DNA from: Bacteroidales bacterium
GTDB taxonomy: Bacteria > Bacteroidota > Bacteroidia > Bacteroidales > Tenuifilaceae
Assembly (NCBI GenBank): GCA_016931855.1
Contig: JAFGDZ010000068.1
Coordinates: 186,001 to 250,000, forward strand
Length of the DNA stretch: 64,000 nucleotides
Direction: 5' to 3'
In this document: positions 7,998-16,883 of the stretch, piece after piece
How positions within the stretch are numbered: the stretch's first letter is position 1
How the letters are laid out: the number at the start of each line of letters is the position of its first letter
The notes under the pieces: model-generated
The model's database searches: none
Told to the model about the DNA's origin: nothing
What the model saw: the letters and a program-made list of their open reading frames with translations, nothing else
Program-made: the position numbers and the translations under genes

Positions 7998-10325
7998 ATG
8001 AGAATATTCTTTTCAAAGGCTTCACTTTTAGTCGCATTCACATTAGCGTTCCTCTCCTCCTCACTCCTCCACGCACAAAACAACTTTATAACGGGTTACG
8101 TAACCGATTCAATTAGTGGAGAAAAACTTATTAATGCCAACATCTACATTAATGAGTACACAAAAGGAACTGCTAGCAATAACAACGGATACTATACCAT
8201 AAGAACAAAGCAGGAAAATACTACAATTCACTGCTCATACATAGGCTACAGTACAAAGGTGCTAAAAATAGATGTGCAAAAGGATACGCTAATAAACATC
8301 GCATTAGTTCCTAATCTTGAGGTAGAAGAAGTAACAATAGAGGCAAAAAGCAGCCGATTTAAAAACTTTACGATAAAAGACATCCCCATAAAGCAAATAA
8401 AACAAGCTCCTGCCATGATGGGCGAAATAGACATTCAAAAATCGGTACAACAACTACCAAGTGTAACAAGCACTTGGGCTGGTTTTGCTGGGATGATTGT
8501 AAGAGGGGGCAATGCAGATCAGAACCTAATTCTTATTGACGATATCCCCATTTACAACTCATCACATTTCTATGGGCTCTTTTCCGTAATAAATGAGAAT
8601 GCGCTCCAGTCGGCTCGATTTATAAATGGTTCCATTCCTGCAAGGTTTGGAAGTAGGCTCTCATCGGTACTGGACATCACCCTAAAGGATGGCAACAGGA
8701 GAAGAGCAGAAGGCGAAGCGGCTATTGGGATTATGAGTGGGAACATAATGTTAAATGGCCCCCTAAAGAACAACAAAACCACTTACAGCTTTTCGGGGAG
8801 ACGCTCTATGTACGACCTTGCTGCCACATCATACAATCTACTTGCAAAAAAACCGTTGGAAGGCTCTTTCTTTGGTGATGCCACTGCAAAAATTACCCAC
8901 ACATTCTCTAACAGGGACAAGGTTACAATTAGCTTACTCTACTCAATTGACAAATACTACAACAATAGCAAAAAGGATTACTCCATTGGCAATACTACAG
9001 GAGAACTAAGCCAAAAACAAGGATACAATTGGGGCAACTACATATTATCGACAAAATGGAATAGGGTTCATAATCCCATGATCTCATTCTCTAACACCCT
9101 ATTCTTTAGCAATTTCAACCACAAAAGGCAAAACAAGGAGGAGTTTAACTCGGGCTCCTTAGATTACAATAGCAATGTGGAGTTCAGCTCAACCATTAAT
9201 GATATTGGAGTAAGAACCGATTGGCAGTATTTCCCTCACGCATCGCACAAGTTCTACTTTGGTATTAATCACACGTTGCATAGATTTGCGCCAGGATCAT
9301 CCCTATTCTACGACAACAAGGATCAGGCTCAAGAACCTATTAAGCGGAACCTAGGAAGTGAAAAGTACAATTTACACGAAAACATAAGCTACCTAGAGTA
9401 CGATGTAACAATATCACCAATAGTATCCATAAACATAGGTGTTAGAAACACACTTATACTCTCCAAAGAGTACACAAAGCTAATTCCCGAACCAAGATTT
9501 ACCAGTTCAATAACCATTTCGGAAAAATCGAACCTTATAATCTATTATACCCATACCAGCCAATACTTTCACCTGCTCCGAACATCCATACTTGAGCAGC
9601 CAACAGATATGTGGGTGCCTGCCACCAAAAACTTCCCCGAAGAGAAAGCCAATCAAGCAGGTGCTGAATGGACTTATGTCCATTCAAGCGCATACGAGGT
9701 TTCAATTGCCTCATACTACAAAAGCATGTACAACCTTATTAGCTACAAAGAAGGAGCATCGGTTCTACCCAACGAGAATGGGTGGGAAGAGAAAATGGGA
9801 AAAGGGAAAGGACATTCATATGGCGCTGAATTGCTTATACAAAAGAAAGCAGGAAAGCTTACAGGATGGATTGCATATACGTTGGCATGGTCTAAACGAC
9901 AGTTTAACTCTATTAACAAGGGGAAGGAATTCTATTCGCCTTTCGATAAACGTCATGAGATATCAATAACAAGCAATTATCAACTTTCAAGCAACTGGAA
10001 TTTTGGTGCAAACTGGACATTCAACACAGGAATGCCATACAGCATGCCCGCATACTCCATTAAAACATTCAACACCAATGAGGCTATATTTATTTACACC
10101 ACTAAAAACAACCTGAGATTGCCAGCCTACCATAGGCTCGACATAGGAGCTCACTACACAAAAAAACATAGAAAGCACAAGAAGTGGGAAAACGTGTGGT
10201 CGTTCTCTGTATATAATGCTTATGCCAAAAAAAACGTGTATTACAGAGGTATGTGGGGGTACTTCCCCGCAGAGGCAAGCCTTTTTATATGCCTTCCATC
10301 AATTTCGTACAAACTCCGATTTTAG
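7998..10325 (+). CDS. TonB-dependent outer-membrane receptor
   Basis: A 775-residue receptor. Residues 1-26 are a signal peptide with cleavage before Gln27. Residues about 28-115 are a CarboxypepD_reg-like domain (ITGYVTDSISGEKLINANIY). The plug follows at about 125-235, including the signature region IVRGGNADQNLILIDDIPIY, and then a beta-barrel ending SISYKLRF. Such receptors take up substrates too large or scarce for porins, powered by TonB-ExbBD. The DUF4249 lipoprotein gene starts 26 bases downstream, a pairing common in Bacteroidota. No SusD homologue is adjacent, so a glycan substrate is not implied. No metal- or cofactor-specific regulator is nearby, and the substrate cannot be read from the sequence. 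Confidence 0.93.
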   Translation: MRIFFSKASLLVAFTLAFLSSSLLHAQNNFITGYVTDSISGEKLINANIYINEYTKGTASNNNGYYTIRTKQENTTIHCSYIGYSTKVLKIDVQKDTLINIALVPNLEVEEVTIEAKSSRFKNFTIKDIPIKQIKQAPAMMGEIDIQKSVQQLPSVTSTWAGFAGMIVRGGNADQNLILIDDIPIYNSSHFYGLFSVINENALQSARFINGSIPARFGSRLSSVLDITLKDGNRRRAEGEAAIGIMSGNIMLNGPLKNNKTTYSFSGRRSMYDLAATSYNLLAKKPLEGSFFGDATAKITHTFSNRDKVTISLLYSIDKYYNNSKKDYSIGNTTGELSQKQGYNWGNYILSTKWNRVHNPMISFSNTLFFSNFNHKRQNKEEFNSGSLDYNSNVEFSSTINDIGVRTDWQYFPHASHKFYFGINHTLHRFAPGSSLFYDNKDQAQEPIKRNLGSEKYNLHENISYLEYDVTISPIVSINIGVRNTLILSKEYTKLIPEPRFTSSITISEKSNLIIYYTHTSQYFHLLRTSILEQPTDMWVPATKNFPEEKANQAGAEWTYVHSSAYEVSIASYYKSMYNLISYKEGASVLPNENGWEEKMGKGKGHSYGAELLIQKKAGKLTGWIAYTLAWSKRQFNSINKGKEFYSPFDKRHEISITSNYQLSSNWNFGANWTFNTGMPYSMPAYSIKTFNTNEAIFIYTTKNNLRLPAYHRLDIGAHYTKKHRKHKKWENVWSFSVYNAYAKKNVYYRGMWGYFPAEASLFICLPSISYKLRF

Positions 10326-10351: not shown

Positions 10352-11377
10352 ATGAAACAATACCTTCTTATCATACTTCTAGCAACCATCGCAACTCTAG
10401 TTAGCTGCGAAAAGATTCTAGATTACACCACAACACAAATTGATTATAATGGAGTTCCACATAAGTCCATGCTTGTTGTATCGGCAAGATACTATTGCGA
10501 TCTAGGATTAAAAATCCACGTAGATAGAAGCCTGAGTATTGCAGAAAACCCAAACTTACCTCCCCTTGCTCAGGTAAAAGTAACGCTTACAAAAAAGGGT
10601 GGAGCCACGCTTTTTAGCAATTTAGTGACACTTGGATCAACATCGGGGAAAGCATTTATAAGCAAGGACTCCCTTATAGAATTGCCAACAGAAGGAGAAA
10701 CGCTGATATTAAGCGTAGAGTGCAATGGGTTTGATCCTGTAGAAGGGGAAACAACTATTCCGCAAACAGTGCCAATTAATAATTTTAGCGTAACAGGCAA
10801 TGAATCAAAGTCAAATACCTTTCAGTTCACCCTAAATTTTGACGATCCGGCAAACAGCACTAACTACTATTTCATCTCGTCGGTAGAACATACTTTTGCA
10901 TATCCAACATGGAATAACGACACTACTCATAACATACAAAGAATAACTATCCCCCTAACCGACCCCATCTTTTCATTTATGCCAGATTTTAGAACATCTA
11001 TCCACGAACCCTTTAACAACTCGATATATAAACCTAGAATATTTCCAGACACCCCAATTAGTGGAAAAAGTTACTCCCTAAAAATAGACATACCCGAAAA
11101 AACAGATTATCAACAAACACTCTACGACACAATAGAAACTGAATACACCATAGAGCTATTCAGCATATCGAAAGAACTTTTTGAAGCTTACAAATCCATT
11201 TACCTAGCCGAAATAGTTGCAGGTGATATATACTCTGAGCCAATAACTCAATACAGCAACATGAGCAATGGTATTGGATTTTTTGGATCGGTAAGTCCTA
11301 GAGCAAGCAAAACCATTAGACTTGAAAAAAACAGAGTGCTTGAAGTCTTTAATGGCTACACCGATTTTCATTACTAA
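10352..11377 (+). CDS. DUF4249 lipoprotein, partner of the TonB receptor
   Basis: A 341-residue lipoprotein with a signal peptide and lipobox LVSC, lipidated at Cys19. The body is beta-rich and matches the Bacteroidota DUF4249 family (about 270-400 residues), which is typically encoded immediately after a TonB-dependent receptor. It is probably anchored in the outer membrane as a surface or periplasmic accessory of the receptor, but no function is established for the family. It is co-transcribed with the receptor (26-base spacing). The stop codon lies 21 bases before the end of a convergent gene, with no clear hairpin between them. Confidence 0.85.
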   Translation: MKQYLLIILLATIATLVSCEKILDYTTTQIDYNGVPHKSMLVVSARYYCDLGLKIHVDRSLSIAENPNLPPLAQVKVTLTKKGGATLFSNLVTLGSTSGKAFISKDSLIELPTEGETLILSVECNGFDPVEGETTIPQTVPINNFSVTGNESKSNTFQFTLNFDDPANSTNYYFISSVEHTFAYPTWNNDTTHNIQRITIPLTDPIFSFMPDFRTSIHEPFNNSIYKPRIFPDTPISGKSYSLKIDIPEKTDYQQTLYDTIETEYTIELFSISKELFEAYKSIYLAEIVAGDIYSEPITQYSNMSNGIGFFGSVSPRASKTIRLEKNRVLEVFNGYTDFHY

Positions 11378-11398: not shown

Positions 11399-12301
11399 TC
11401 ACTCCCCCATCCACCCACACAGCTCATCAATAAAGGCATCGAAGGCATGGTACTGCGTTCCGGTGAAGTGAACGGGCAAACCCAGCCGTTTTACGTTGGA
11501 GGCGGTGTATGGGCCAAAGCAGGCTACAATATCGGATGGACGGATAGCATTAACACCAACTATTCTAAGAAACGCTTCGGCCTCGGCAGTGCTGGTAAAT
11601 ACCACAACACAGCGGTGCTGCGCGGCTAACTCGCCAGTAAGGATTGGTGCTGCAGTAGCAAACGCGGGTTGGGTTACATACGCCTCAACCTTGGTTGGAT
11701 GCATGCCTATGGCCTTGAGCCTTGATAGGAATACAGGAATTACATCGGGCTCAGTTAGTTCCTTAACTAGGGGCGCAACAACGGCTATGCGCTTACCCTG
11801 AGTGCTGGGCATTAACGATAGCTCCACGGCAATTCCTTCTGGGCTGGCCTTTTGGGGCACAAGCGCTGCTAGTACGCCATAGGTTTTAAGCATGTAATCG
11901 GCATCGCGCCCAATGGCTGCTATGCGCAGGGCTTTTAGTTCAGCATTACCAAGCCTTTTTATGGCCGATGCAAAGAACGCATCAATTGCTGTGCGGCTGG
12001 GTAGCACAATCCACTGGTAATGAGCAATAGAGTCTAACAGAGTGGTTACAGGAACAGTATCGGGGTTAGCGTGCGCATCAATTGTTGAAACAATACATGC
12101 CGAACCTCCACGCTCATCAACAATGGATGCAAAACGGGAGGCGTATATGCCGGGGGCAGTAATAAGCACCCGCGCACCGTTTAGCGAGCAAGATGTTGTG
12201 GTATCGGATTGAGCCGCCACGTTTAGGAACATCAATATCAACACAAAAACAGGAACTATTCTTGCGATATAGCGTTTGGAGTGGGATATTGAATGTGACA
12301 T
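11399..12301 (-). CDS. Exported HEM4 / uroporphyrinogen-III synthase-like protein
   Basis: A 300-residue protein. Residues about 42-298 look like a HEM4 (HemD) fold: two alternating alpha/beta domains with VVVFTSTAEAEAFLRIVG and IVACFGPYTASNVKRLGL, as in uroporphyrinogen-III synthases (normally about 240-260 residues). HemD closes hydroxymethylbilane to uroporphyrinogen III in the cytosol. Here the ATG is followed by a textbook signal peptide: basic residues 9-14, hydrophobic core 15-28, and AA before Gln31. The protein is therefore predicted to be periplasmic, which does not fit haem synthesis. No other hem gene is in view. It follows the T9SS cargo gene with a 5-base gap, so the two are co-translated. 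The fold call is good; enzymatic activity is doubtful. Confidence 0.78.
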   Translation of the reverse strand: MSHSISHSKRYIARIVPVFVLILMFLNVAAQSDTTTSCSLNGARVLITAPGIYASRFASIVDERGGSACIVSTIDAHANPDTVPVTTLLDSIAHYQWIVLPSRTAIDAFFASAIKRLGNAELKALRIAAIGRDADYMLKTYGVLAALVPQKASPEGIAVELSLMPSTQGKRIAVVAPLVKELTEPDVIPVFLSRLKAIGMHPTKVEAYVTQPAFATAAPILTGELAAQHRCVVVFTSTAEAEAFLRIVGVNAIRPSDIVACFGPYTASNVKRLGLPVHFTGTQYHAFDAFIDELCGWMGE

Positions 12302-12306
12302 AGGAA

Positions 12307-13707
12307 TTATTTACCTCGGTACAAATGCAAAAACCCCTTATACATTCCGCTGCGGTAGCGCTTACCATCCCAGCCAACAGCCTCTATAACGTAGAAGTAA
12401 ACGCCCTCAGGAACATCGCCCTTGGTACCATCAACCTTGCCGTTCCATCCCTCCCAATCCTTAGGATTGCCCTCGTAGCGATAGACTAGTTTACCCTGAC
12501 GGCTATAGAAACTTGCGCTAAAGCGCTTTATGGACTGCACGTTAATATCGGCCTCCTTAATCACGAAAAAATCGTTAATGCCATCGCCATTGGGGCTAAA
12601 CACATTGGGTATGGCATCGGGCTTTATGAATGAGGTATCAACCTGAACTGTCATTTTTAGCGTATCCCTACAGCCAGAGGTAACGTTAACCGACACATGC
12701 TCCAACGGGTAAATGCCTGGCACTAGCAGCTCCTTTGGTGGATAAAACATTAGCCCCTCGGAAAAGAGCGAGGCCTGATGCCACACAATGCTATCGCCGC
12801 CCTTATAGAAAAGGTACTCGTCGTTTAGGATGTTTACGTAAACAGAGTCGGCATTCTTTGCGGTGGTTTCCAACTGAATCTCCATTGGAGCCTCCCCTTT
12901 TGGATTATCGCCAGCATCCTTCCACTCGTCCTTATCGTCCAAAACCGAAACCTTTAGTGTGGCCAGCGTGGCAACGGCAGGTTGCAAAGTGGTTTGCGCG
13001 CTCATGCTACGACCGAATAGGTTGGTAATATCAACCTTATACGCCGAGCTAACCAGCGGGGCAGGCGATTCTATTGAAACATCCAAACTCGAAGCAGATG
13101 GAACGGCAACCCCACCTTCTGTAGCGCTCCAGCGAATAGATTTAAAGTATATTTTGCCCAGATTGTTTAAATCGGGATGGCTCGGGCGCGACAAATCGTA
13201 GTAGGTAAACGTTTCGTAAACTATGCTATACCTGTTGGGTAGGGTAATTACCTCCATCCAAAGGTAGGTGCAGGTATTATCAATATCGATATAGCTTATT
13301 GCTACATCGTCAACCATAACCCATGCTGTGTAAACCTCTGTTGTATTATCAGGAAGTTTAACCTCAACCCGGTATCCACCAGGAGCAAGGTTTGTTTGCT
13401 GCGAATGGGTAACACCACTCTCCTGAAAGAATTGCTCAAATCGCAAAGCAGGGTTAGCTATTGCAGTATTGTACTTATACCAAGTAAAGTCGGCGGAAGA
13501 GCCATCGGAAAACTTAGCCTTTAGCGTAGGAGTATTCCCCTGTGCGGCAAAGAAAACAAATACCGAATCCTGTTTCTCAAGCGTGTTAAGATACTCGGTT
13601 GCTGCTTTCCAATTTGGACTAGGAGCCCAAAGCTGTGCACTAGCAGAAATAAACAATCCAGATATTACTATAAGTAGCGATGTTAAGCCAAACCTTTTTT
13701 GCAACAT
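12307..13707 (-). CDS. Secreted protein with T9SS type B (gliding-motility CHU_C) sorting domain
   Basis: A 466-residue protein. Residues 1-24 are a signal peptide with cleavage before Gln25. The middle is beta-sandwich-like, with two or three Ig/PKD-type repeats that are not individually recognisable. The last 90 or so residues are the type B C-terminal domain, opening with IPNVFSPNGDGINDFF and ending GMYKGFLHLYRGK, with the typical GVYFYVIEA strand. This domain directs proteins through the outer membrane via the type IX secretion system. It is the first gene of a two-gene operon with the exported HEM4 protein. The adhesive or structural role usual for CHU_C proteins is an inference; no catalytic motif is visible. 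Confidence 0.88.
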   Translation of the reverse strand: MLQKRFGLTSLLIVISGLFISASAQLWAPSPNWKAATEYLNTLEKQDSVFVFFAAQGNTPTLKAKFSDGSSADFTWYKYNTAIANPALRFEQFFQESGVTHSQQTNLAPGGYRVEVKLPDNTTEVYTAWVMVDDVAISYIDIDNTCTYLWMEVITLPNRYSIVYETFTYYDLSRPSHPDLNNLGKIYFKSIRWSATEGGVAVPSASSLDVSIESPAPLVSSAYKVDITNLFGRSMSAQTTLQPAVATLATLKVSVLDDKDEWKDAGDNPKGEAPMEIQLETTAKNADSVYVNILNDEYLFYKGGDSIVWHQASLFSEGLMFYPPKELLVPGIYPLEHVSVNVTSGCRDTLKMTVQVDTSFIKPDAIPNVFSPNGDGINDFFVIKEADINVQSIKRFSASFYSRQGKLVYRYEGNPKDWEGWNGKVDGTKGDVPEGVYFYVIEAVGWDGKRYRSGMYKGFLHLYRGK

Positions 13708-13812
13708 TGTAGTTAGATATTTCGCATGAGATGTTACGCCTTAACGCGTTCCCTCATCATAAAATTGTTTTCTAGTCCACAATATTAGTAATAATAGGTG
13801 AGAATAGAGCAG

Positions 13813-13978
13813 ATGTTAGACGTTAGATAATAGACGTTAGACACAATCACTAGACGTTAGACGCTAGACGTTAGATGTTAGACATAATGCAACAACCAAA
13901 CACTAGACGTTAGAAATAATGTAACAACCAAATACCAAACACTAAACACTAATCACTAAACACCAAATACTAATACCA
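13813..13978 (+). repeat. Two adjoining heptamer arrays (ACGTTAG-type, then AAACACT-type)
   Basis: Bases 13813-13888 read as about eleven 7-mers, mostly ACGTTAG, ATGTTAG, ACGCTAG and ACATAAT, with one slip to six bases at 13848-13853. After a transition, bases 13923-13978 read in 7-base phase as AACAACC, AAATACC, AAACACT twice, AATCACT, AAACACC and AAATACT. No ORF crosses them. The rest of the 349-base gap (13708-14056) holds the leader of the T9SS cargo gene and the uvrD promoter. Confidence 0.8.
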
Positions 13979-16450: not shown

Positions 16451-16883
16451 AGAATAAAACACTGAGGTACTGAGAAGAACAGAGTGCACGGAGTTTTTTT
16501 TGAGAGAGGAAGTTGAGGAAGTTGAGGAAGGAATAAAACACCAAGGCACAGAGATAACTGAGTGCACGGAGTTTCTTTTGTGAGAGGAAGTTGAGGGAGA
16601 TGACGTAGTTGAGGGAGGGATAAAACACCAAGGCACAGAGGAAACAGAGTGCACGGAGTTTATTGTGTGAGAGGAAGTTGATGTAGATGATGTTTTGAGG
16701 AAGGAATAAAACACCAAGGCACAGAGAAAACTGAGTGTACGAAGTTTTTTTTGAGAGGAAGTTGATGTAGATAACCTAGTTGAGGGAGCGACAAAACACA
16801 GAGGCACAGAAAAAACAGAGTGCACGGAGTTTTTTTTGAGAGAGAAAGTTGATGTAGCTGATGTAGTTGACCTAGTTGAGGGA
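16451..16883. repeat. Degenerate tandem repeat, five units of about 78-87 bp
   Basis: Each unit contains a block like AAAACACCAAGGCACAGAG, then AGTGCACGGAGTT, a T-run, GAGAGGAAG, and a variable stretch built from GTTGA/GATGTAG-like words. AGTGCACGGAGTT (or a near copy) recurs at 16483, 16561, 16648, 16734 and 16819, giving spacings of 78, 87, 86 and 85. The translated minus-strand frames are low-complexity by-products. The flanks (16394-16450 and 16884-16967) hold only T/C-rich low-complexity sequence. No gene lies between 16367 and 17116. Confidence 0.88.

Follow-up and report, generated by a model that had tools for sequence, protein, structure and literature searches.

An exported HemD-like protein in a Bacteroidales bacterium, with a probable role in handling scavenged porphyrins and not in their synthesis

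The locus analyzed here raises the question of what a HEM4 (HemD-like) protein does when it is apparently exported and its gene follows directly on that of a T9SS cargo protein. The window, by which we mean the whole stretch of 64,000 nucleotides analyzed, comes from a Bacteroidales genome that is 98% complete (G000), and its relevant features are collected in Table 1. The initial annotation, made from the letters, recognized a HEM4 fold in the protein, and our analysis bears this out: PF02602 is matched at residues 56-285 (E 1.4e-25; 90.3 bits, with a gathering cut-off of 27.5 bits), the AlphaFold (AF2) model made with a 50-member alignment has a mean pLDDT of 92 and a pTM of 0.82, and the best structural matches (Foldseek/VIA) are all uroporphyrinogen-III synthases, far above the next full-length entries. 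The two-lobed fold is held in common with HemD (PF02602; 1JR2, 1WCX, 3RE1 and 4ES6) at VIA Z 16-21 over 210-246 residues; in the model this domain scores over 94 from about residue 42, and a helix at residues 12-29 scores 51-67. No solved relative was found by sequence, even with a 50-member profile. Weaker structural matches below the synthases include periplasmic solute-binding proteins (Z 7-9, about 110 residues), in a range where chance arrangements are common; like the window protein these are exported and have a two-lobed alpha/beta cleft, whereas the HEM4 fold is distinct from theirs and no homology is claimed.

Table 1. Positions in the window of the HEM4 gene, its parts and its neighbors
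Feature	Position	Strand	Evidence
Exported HEM4 (HemD-like) protein, clade W, 300 aa	11399..12301	-	ORF, PF02602, tree, AF2, Foldseek/VIA
Predicted Sec signal peptide, residues 1-30, cleavage before Gln31	12212..12301	-	Sequence, recurrence in orthologues
Bilobal HEM4 domain, residues 42-300	11402..12178	-	50-member alignment, VIA range 42-300
Gap from cargo stop to HEM4 start, 5 bp	12302..12306	-	ORF coordinates
T9SS type B cargo, 466 aa, upstream neighbor of HEM4	12307..13707	-	TIGR04131 38.2 bits / PF13585 66.3 bits
Type B C-terminal sorting domain of cargo, residues 366-461	12325..12612	-	Pfam CHU_C
DUF4249 protein, convergent with HEM4 gene, neighbor only	10352..11377	+	PF14054 E 1.3e-27
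TonB-dependent-receptor-like outer-membrane protein, 5′ of DUF4249 gene, neighbor only	7998..10325	+	Read from sequence

The source genome contains exactly two HEM4 genes. The second encodes a cytosolic protein (MKIKKIIVSQPEPQSEKSPY...) in a DUF4271-HEM4-rnpA neighborhood (contig C72; locus L081, 5648-6394, minus strand; L001), in which rnpA was recognized by sequence and the other neighbor is a gene that we take to be DUF4271. This DUF4271-linked HEM4 is extremely conserved, also at loci L033-L053; HEM4 genes are present in 22/27 genomes of the family, and outside the source genome 21 of 26 family members have just one, of the DUF4271-linked type where it was read. Porphobilinogen deaminase HemC (PF01379) is absent from the source genome, with 11 of 14 control genomes positive in the same search, and it is likewise absent from 14 of the 16 Bacteroidota genomes that carry relatives of the window protein in its own clade (W, below). 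Without HemC there is no home-made hydroxymethylbilane, and neither HEM4 protein can therefore be a working uroporphyrinogen-III synthase on home-made substrate. The suggestion in the initial annotation that a second, true hemD might lie elsewhere thus holds in so far as a second, cytosolic HEM4 gene was found; the gene is of the DUF4271-linked type and stands without HemC, and we rejected it as a true HemD, there being no working hemD pathway. The window protein itself scores at best 58.9 bits against the NCBIfam equivalog for uroporphyrinogen-III synthase, which has a cut-off of 275. HemD activity of this protein is very unlikely and a non-HemD role is well supported, so that earlier doubts about a HemD role are strengthened, both by the lack of HemC and by the way in which the exported clade tracks porphyrin-salvage genes. 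PF00762 ferrochelatase was also not found in the source genome, as in several other W genomes, and half of the 16 lack it.

Phylogenetic analysis placed the window protein in a third HEM4 clade, which we name W. In a maximum-likelihood tree with long branches and few HemD outgroups, W forms one clade (100/99) apart from the HemC-linked HemD and the DUF4271-type proteins, and the window protein pairs with that of genome G304 (100/98). Two HemC-positive genomes, G124 and G228, carry three HEM4 genes each, i.e., a HemC-linked HemD (partial in G124, covering profile positions 72-231 in a 190-aa frame), a DUF4271-linked gene and a W gene, and this coexistence argues most clearly against W being their HemD. 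The DUF4271-linked protein resembles W in belonging to the HEM4 family, in being present without HemC and in occurring in the source genome, but it is cytosolic, very strongly conserved and of fixed gene neighborhood, and it falls in a different clade. When GTDB species genomes were scanned, 95 relatives came up and 80 were kept, mostly from Cyanobacteria, plus Chloroflexota and Bacteroidota, and W is common to these three phyla. Among 393 genomes of the order, clear orthologues numbered five in a single-sequence search, spread over five other families at 30-43% identity, and a 50-sequence profile gave six proteins above 290 bits, the next, at 110 bits, being a HemC-linked HemD; no W orthologue was found among 26 genomes of the same family. 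A literature search that covered few subscription papers found nothing relevant on exported HemD, on HEM4 with T9SS or on a named W family.

The claim that the window protein starts with a Sec signal peptide ending before Gln31 is supported by its N-terminus, MSHSISHSKRYIARIVPVFVLILMFLNVAA|QSD, which has a basic n-region, a hydrophobic core (maximum 12-residue Kyte-Doolittle mean 3.24) and an A-x-A-like site (VAA|Q), and by the recurrence of such signals in divergent orthologues. We called export from the maximal 12-residue hydropathy upstream of the first conserved strand, and by this measure the N-terminus is of export type (2.07-3.27) in 11 of the 17 W proteins from Bacteroidota, so that HEM4 proteins with predicted export signals do occur in other Bacteroidota; the other six have almost no N-terminal extension. 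No export signal was found among 57 cyanobacterial or chloroflexotal W proteins (maximum 1.52). In distant orthologues (31-43% identity) hydrophobic export signals of differing sequence precede the same domain boundary; several have Gln next, the usual residue there in Bacteroidota, and some exported W proteins are lipoprotein-like (L128, G121). Within the Bacteroidota portion of the tree, exported and cytosolic members are intermingled, and localisation has therefore changed, or was lost, more than once. The start of the cytosolic W of G346 directly follows a TACTTTTGC -7-like box, and this speaks for a genuine absence of signal there. For the window protein, the predicted periplasmic location is well supported at the level of sequence.

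The distribution of W in Bacteroidota follows that of HemY. We found HemY (TIGR00562) in all 16 properly binned W-positive Bacteroidota genomes; the only W genome of the set without it is G414; this bin of 1.1 Mb bears the label Babeliaceae, and its W contig is Bacteroidota-like. The gene order on that contig (L085; bin labelled Candidatus Babeliaceae) is the same as at the Bacteroidota locus L086, and the bin is probably contaminated or mislabelled. Across the order, HemY is present in 103/393 genomes and in 6/6 of those with W (P 2.9e-4, ignoring phylogeny), and it was not found in the five same-family genomes of this sample. W lies a few genes from HemY or its TonB/MFS partners in four genomes (G346, G228, G417 and G421). 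For example, in G346 and G228 W is tail to tail with HemY, beyond which come genes for HemN, an AmpG/RhtX-like MFS carrier and a TonB receptor, and in an Azobacteroides MAG (L111) an exported W stands beside HemY with one small exported protein between. At one Prevotella locus (L161, 8630-10801, plus strand) a single 723-aa ORF directly after HemN is HemY fused to a clade-W HEM4, and at another (L157) W faces the MFS and TonB genes. The order TonB receptor-MFS-HemN-HemY, with an AmpG/RhtX-like carrier, is the same in G304, G124, G346, G228 and others, and it suggests an operon for taking up and converting porphyrins; the MFS carrier is nearest to siderophore and muropeptide carriers, below curated cut-offs. 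The source genome has this locus complete on contig C67 (L222, 1894-8317, minus strand), with HemN matching TIGR00538 at 487 bits and HemY matching TIGR00562 at 264 bits. The TonB-receptor-like protein in the window is distinct from the receptor on that contig and has no NCBIfam match. Several observations count against or limit a salvage reading: W is not adjacent to the salvage locus in the source genome, no PF00762 ferrochelatase was found there to end the route to heme, and with W in 6/393 genomes of the order against HemY in 103, W would be at most accessory. In addition, W of Cyanobacteria, where both genomes tested are HemC-positive, showed no clear porphyrin context, with occasional ferrochelatase or ferredoxin neighbors only.

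These findings lead us to a reading to which we would give about an even chance, i.e., that the window protein is a periplasmic (elsewhere cytosolic) tetrapyrrole-binding W protein that serves porphyrin salvage and is not a uroporphyrinogen-III synthase. We infer its ligand, mechanism, hand-over and benefit as follows. Scavenged coproporphyrin(ogen) or protoporphyrin(ogen) would enter through the TonB-dependent receptor, the two-lobed HEM4 cleft of W would bind it in the periplasm and present it to the inner-membrane MFS carrier, and cytosolic HemN and HemY would turn the imported tetrapyrrole into protoporphyrin IX; a cytosolic or HemY-fused W would hold the same ligand across the inner membrane, in the cytosol, after import. 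A wider and rather doubtful proposal, which we offer tentatively, is that W is a new tetrapyrrole-handling class derived from the HemD fold, acting in Bacteroidota as a periplasmic capture or isomer-sorting step of TonB receptor-MFS-HemN-HemY scavenging, with the inner membrane crossed several times or several losses. The idea in the initial annotation that the HEM4 fold was reused, perhaps to bind a tetrapyrrole, fits the tracking of porphyrin-salvage genes, and its further suggestion that the protein scaffolds the cargo is not supported, W being present in 0/26 relatives.

Salvage of tetrapyrroles could also be served by catalysis, with W rearranging, opening or protecting scavenged porphyrinogens, possibly by handling type I/III isomers in a synthase-like cleft. 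In 50 W sequences 19 columns are invariant (T48, P50, Y53, S102, R103, G131, D133, G156, P185, Y208, T210, S237, E240 and CFGPYT at 261-266), many of them polar (D133, E240, Y208, T210, T266, S102 and R103), and they hold across Bacteroidota, Cyanobacteria and Chloroflexota, which suggests a conserved chemical task and not loose binding. The window protein carries the resulting signature (T.P..Y, SR, IGxD, EP(D/N)xxP, YxT, S..E and CFGPYT). A profile-profile alignment of W with 20 Bacteroidales HemD sequences (probability 100%, 15% identity) showed counterparts in W of HemD Y165, T167, S193, G219 and T222 (numbering of A4, a HemC-linked Bacteroidales HemD), Y208, T210, S237 and T266 among them, so that the Y-x-T, the S and the second G-x-x-T of HemD are kept. 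In contrast, T99 and S195 of A4, both invariant in HemD, align with A134 and A239 of W, both variable: the Thr of the first-lobe IGxxT motif has given way to IGKD-x and SPS to S-(T/A)-A-E, and W has an extra EPDVIP loop. Read from these alignments, the W signature is conserved yet different from that of HemD. The strict conservation of polar residues makes a catalytic W a serious rival, but synthase-type chemistry starts from linear hydroxymethylbilane, a compound that these organisms are unable to produce, and the HemD invariants named above are lost, and we regard an enzymatic role as unlikely.

We consider it similarly improbable that W has a role unrelated to tetrapyrroles, e.g., in envelope stress, redox or sensing, with the HemY link due to descent or chance. 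The varied neighbors of exported W, which include an NfeD-type protease, a PepSY-TM protein, a 7TM-HD protein, a FemX-like protein and a T9SS cargo, would fit such a role, as would the small heat-shock protein gene near many W loci; HemY in 16/16 genomes, the HemY fusion and adjacency in several lineages speak against it. Individual loci illustrate this variety. At L150 (8412-10759) the end of a PepSY-TM gene and an exported W gene overlap, another exported W gene lies about 15 bp 3′ of an NfeD-type membrane protease gene (L086, 7875-10148; similar in L085), and in Bacteroides graminisolvens (L128, 9237-10786) a gene for an exported or lipoprotein-like W is divergent from an NrfH-type cytochrome gene, which is followed by an NrfA-like gene. 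The small heat-shock protein (Hsp20) gene occurs near W at 19 loci (e.g., cyanobacterial and other loci L103, L114 and L133; also L076), Bacteroidota G346 included. Cyanobacterial W loci frequently have Hsp20, ferredoxin or 2-hydroxyacid-dehydrogenase-like neighbors, some shared by close relatives, and apart from these no single conserved partner was found there.

The initial annotation had proposed that the HEM4 protein and the cargo form a surface/periplasm module, in which the former would scaffold or chaperone the latter, and this we hold to be very improbable. Its starting point is accurate, as the two open reading frames lie exactly as described, on the same strand with five bases between the end of the cargo stop codon (12307) and the HEM4 ATG (12301), and in G228 the W gene is separated by 7 bp from a preceding gene, presumably DUF5103-like, i.e., of T9SS plug type. 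The cargo has a signal peptide of its own and a CHU_C/type B sorting domain (366-461, 2.7e-18). However, 25/26 same-family genomes have the cargo homologue at full length (38-52% identity), G015 having the sorting domain only, and W occurs in none of the 26; the HEM4 gene was not found 3′ of the cargo gene in any of nine inspected relatives, so the pair is not kept, and no cargo homologue occurs at any other W locus, where W has other neighbors. On these grounds the module was rejected. The UvrD helicase gene is divergently upstream of the cargo gene in 7/9 of the inspected relatives, as in the window, where degenerate tandem repeats (AGACGTT-type, period 7/41, plus an 87-bp unit in about four copies) lie on either side of it (13811-13973 and 16456-16870). 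Since the cargo is family-wide without W, the HEM4 gene has come to lie 3′ of an old cargo gene, either because it was gained in the genus or because it was repeatedly lost elsewhere. The two genes are likely co-transcribed, as their spacing and shared strand suggest, and may lie on one transcript; nothing suggests a shared function. Searches of the HEM4 locus gave no signal above chance for sigma-70 or Bacteroidota promoters or for a terminator 3′ of HEM4.

A true uroporphyrinogen-III synthase working in the periplasm on imported hydroxymethylbilane would have the correct fold (Z about 20), but the lack of HemC, the separate clade, the unconserved HemD-invariant Thr and Ser and the failure of a W profile to find any uroporphyrinogen-III synthase chain in the PDB at E 0.01 make this extremely unlikely, as does the fact that hydroxymethylbilane cyclises within minutes. 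A mis-called start of a cytosolic enzyme, for which the possible internal start M24 and several cytosolic relatives could be cited, is just as remote and was rejected on the recurrence of export signals among 11 divergent orthologues, in several cases with Gln next, and on an ORF that begins 5 bp past the cargo stop.

The preferred reading, a tetrapyrrole-binding W protein in porphyrin salvage, can be set beside known systems. W differs from HemD in its export signal, in the absence of HemC from the organism and in its separate clade. According to the parts of the sources available, Bacteroidota in which the early heme pathway is missing still have late enzymes and are able to use protoporphyrin IX (PMC13227078), a heme de-chelatase is described (PMC12583661), and heme-auxotrophic members have a HemD/HemN/HemG/HemH remnant in Porphyromonas gingivalis and Hmu/HmuS in Bacteroides (PMC13227078, PMC12583661). 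As far as these parts go, such auxotrophs are like the source organism in having lost the early pathway, kept late enzymes and depending on a TonB receptor, whereas the Porphyromonas and Bacteroides systems use Hmu proteins and the HmuS chelatase, with no exported HEM4 component described in the same parts (PMC13227078, PMC12583661).

In summary, this gut-type bacterium exports a HemD-like protein though it is unable to make the substrate of HemD, and the probable task of the protein is to handle porphyrins that have been scavenged, not to make them. Heme auxotrophs without HemC keep HemD-type proteins, and W offers a testable case of what these do there; HEM4 matches alone are poor evidence for a working heme pathway. 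If W binds scavenged porphyrins, it would be an extra component in Bacteroidota that feed on host or community tetrapyrroles. If W is indeed a class of periplasmic capture proteins, the fold of an anabolic enzyme would serve nutrient uptake on either side of the membrane, in one lineage fused to protoporphyrinogen oxidase.
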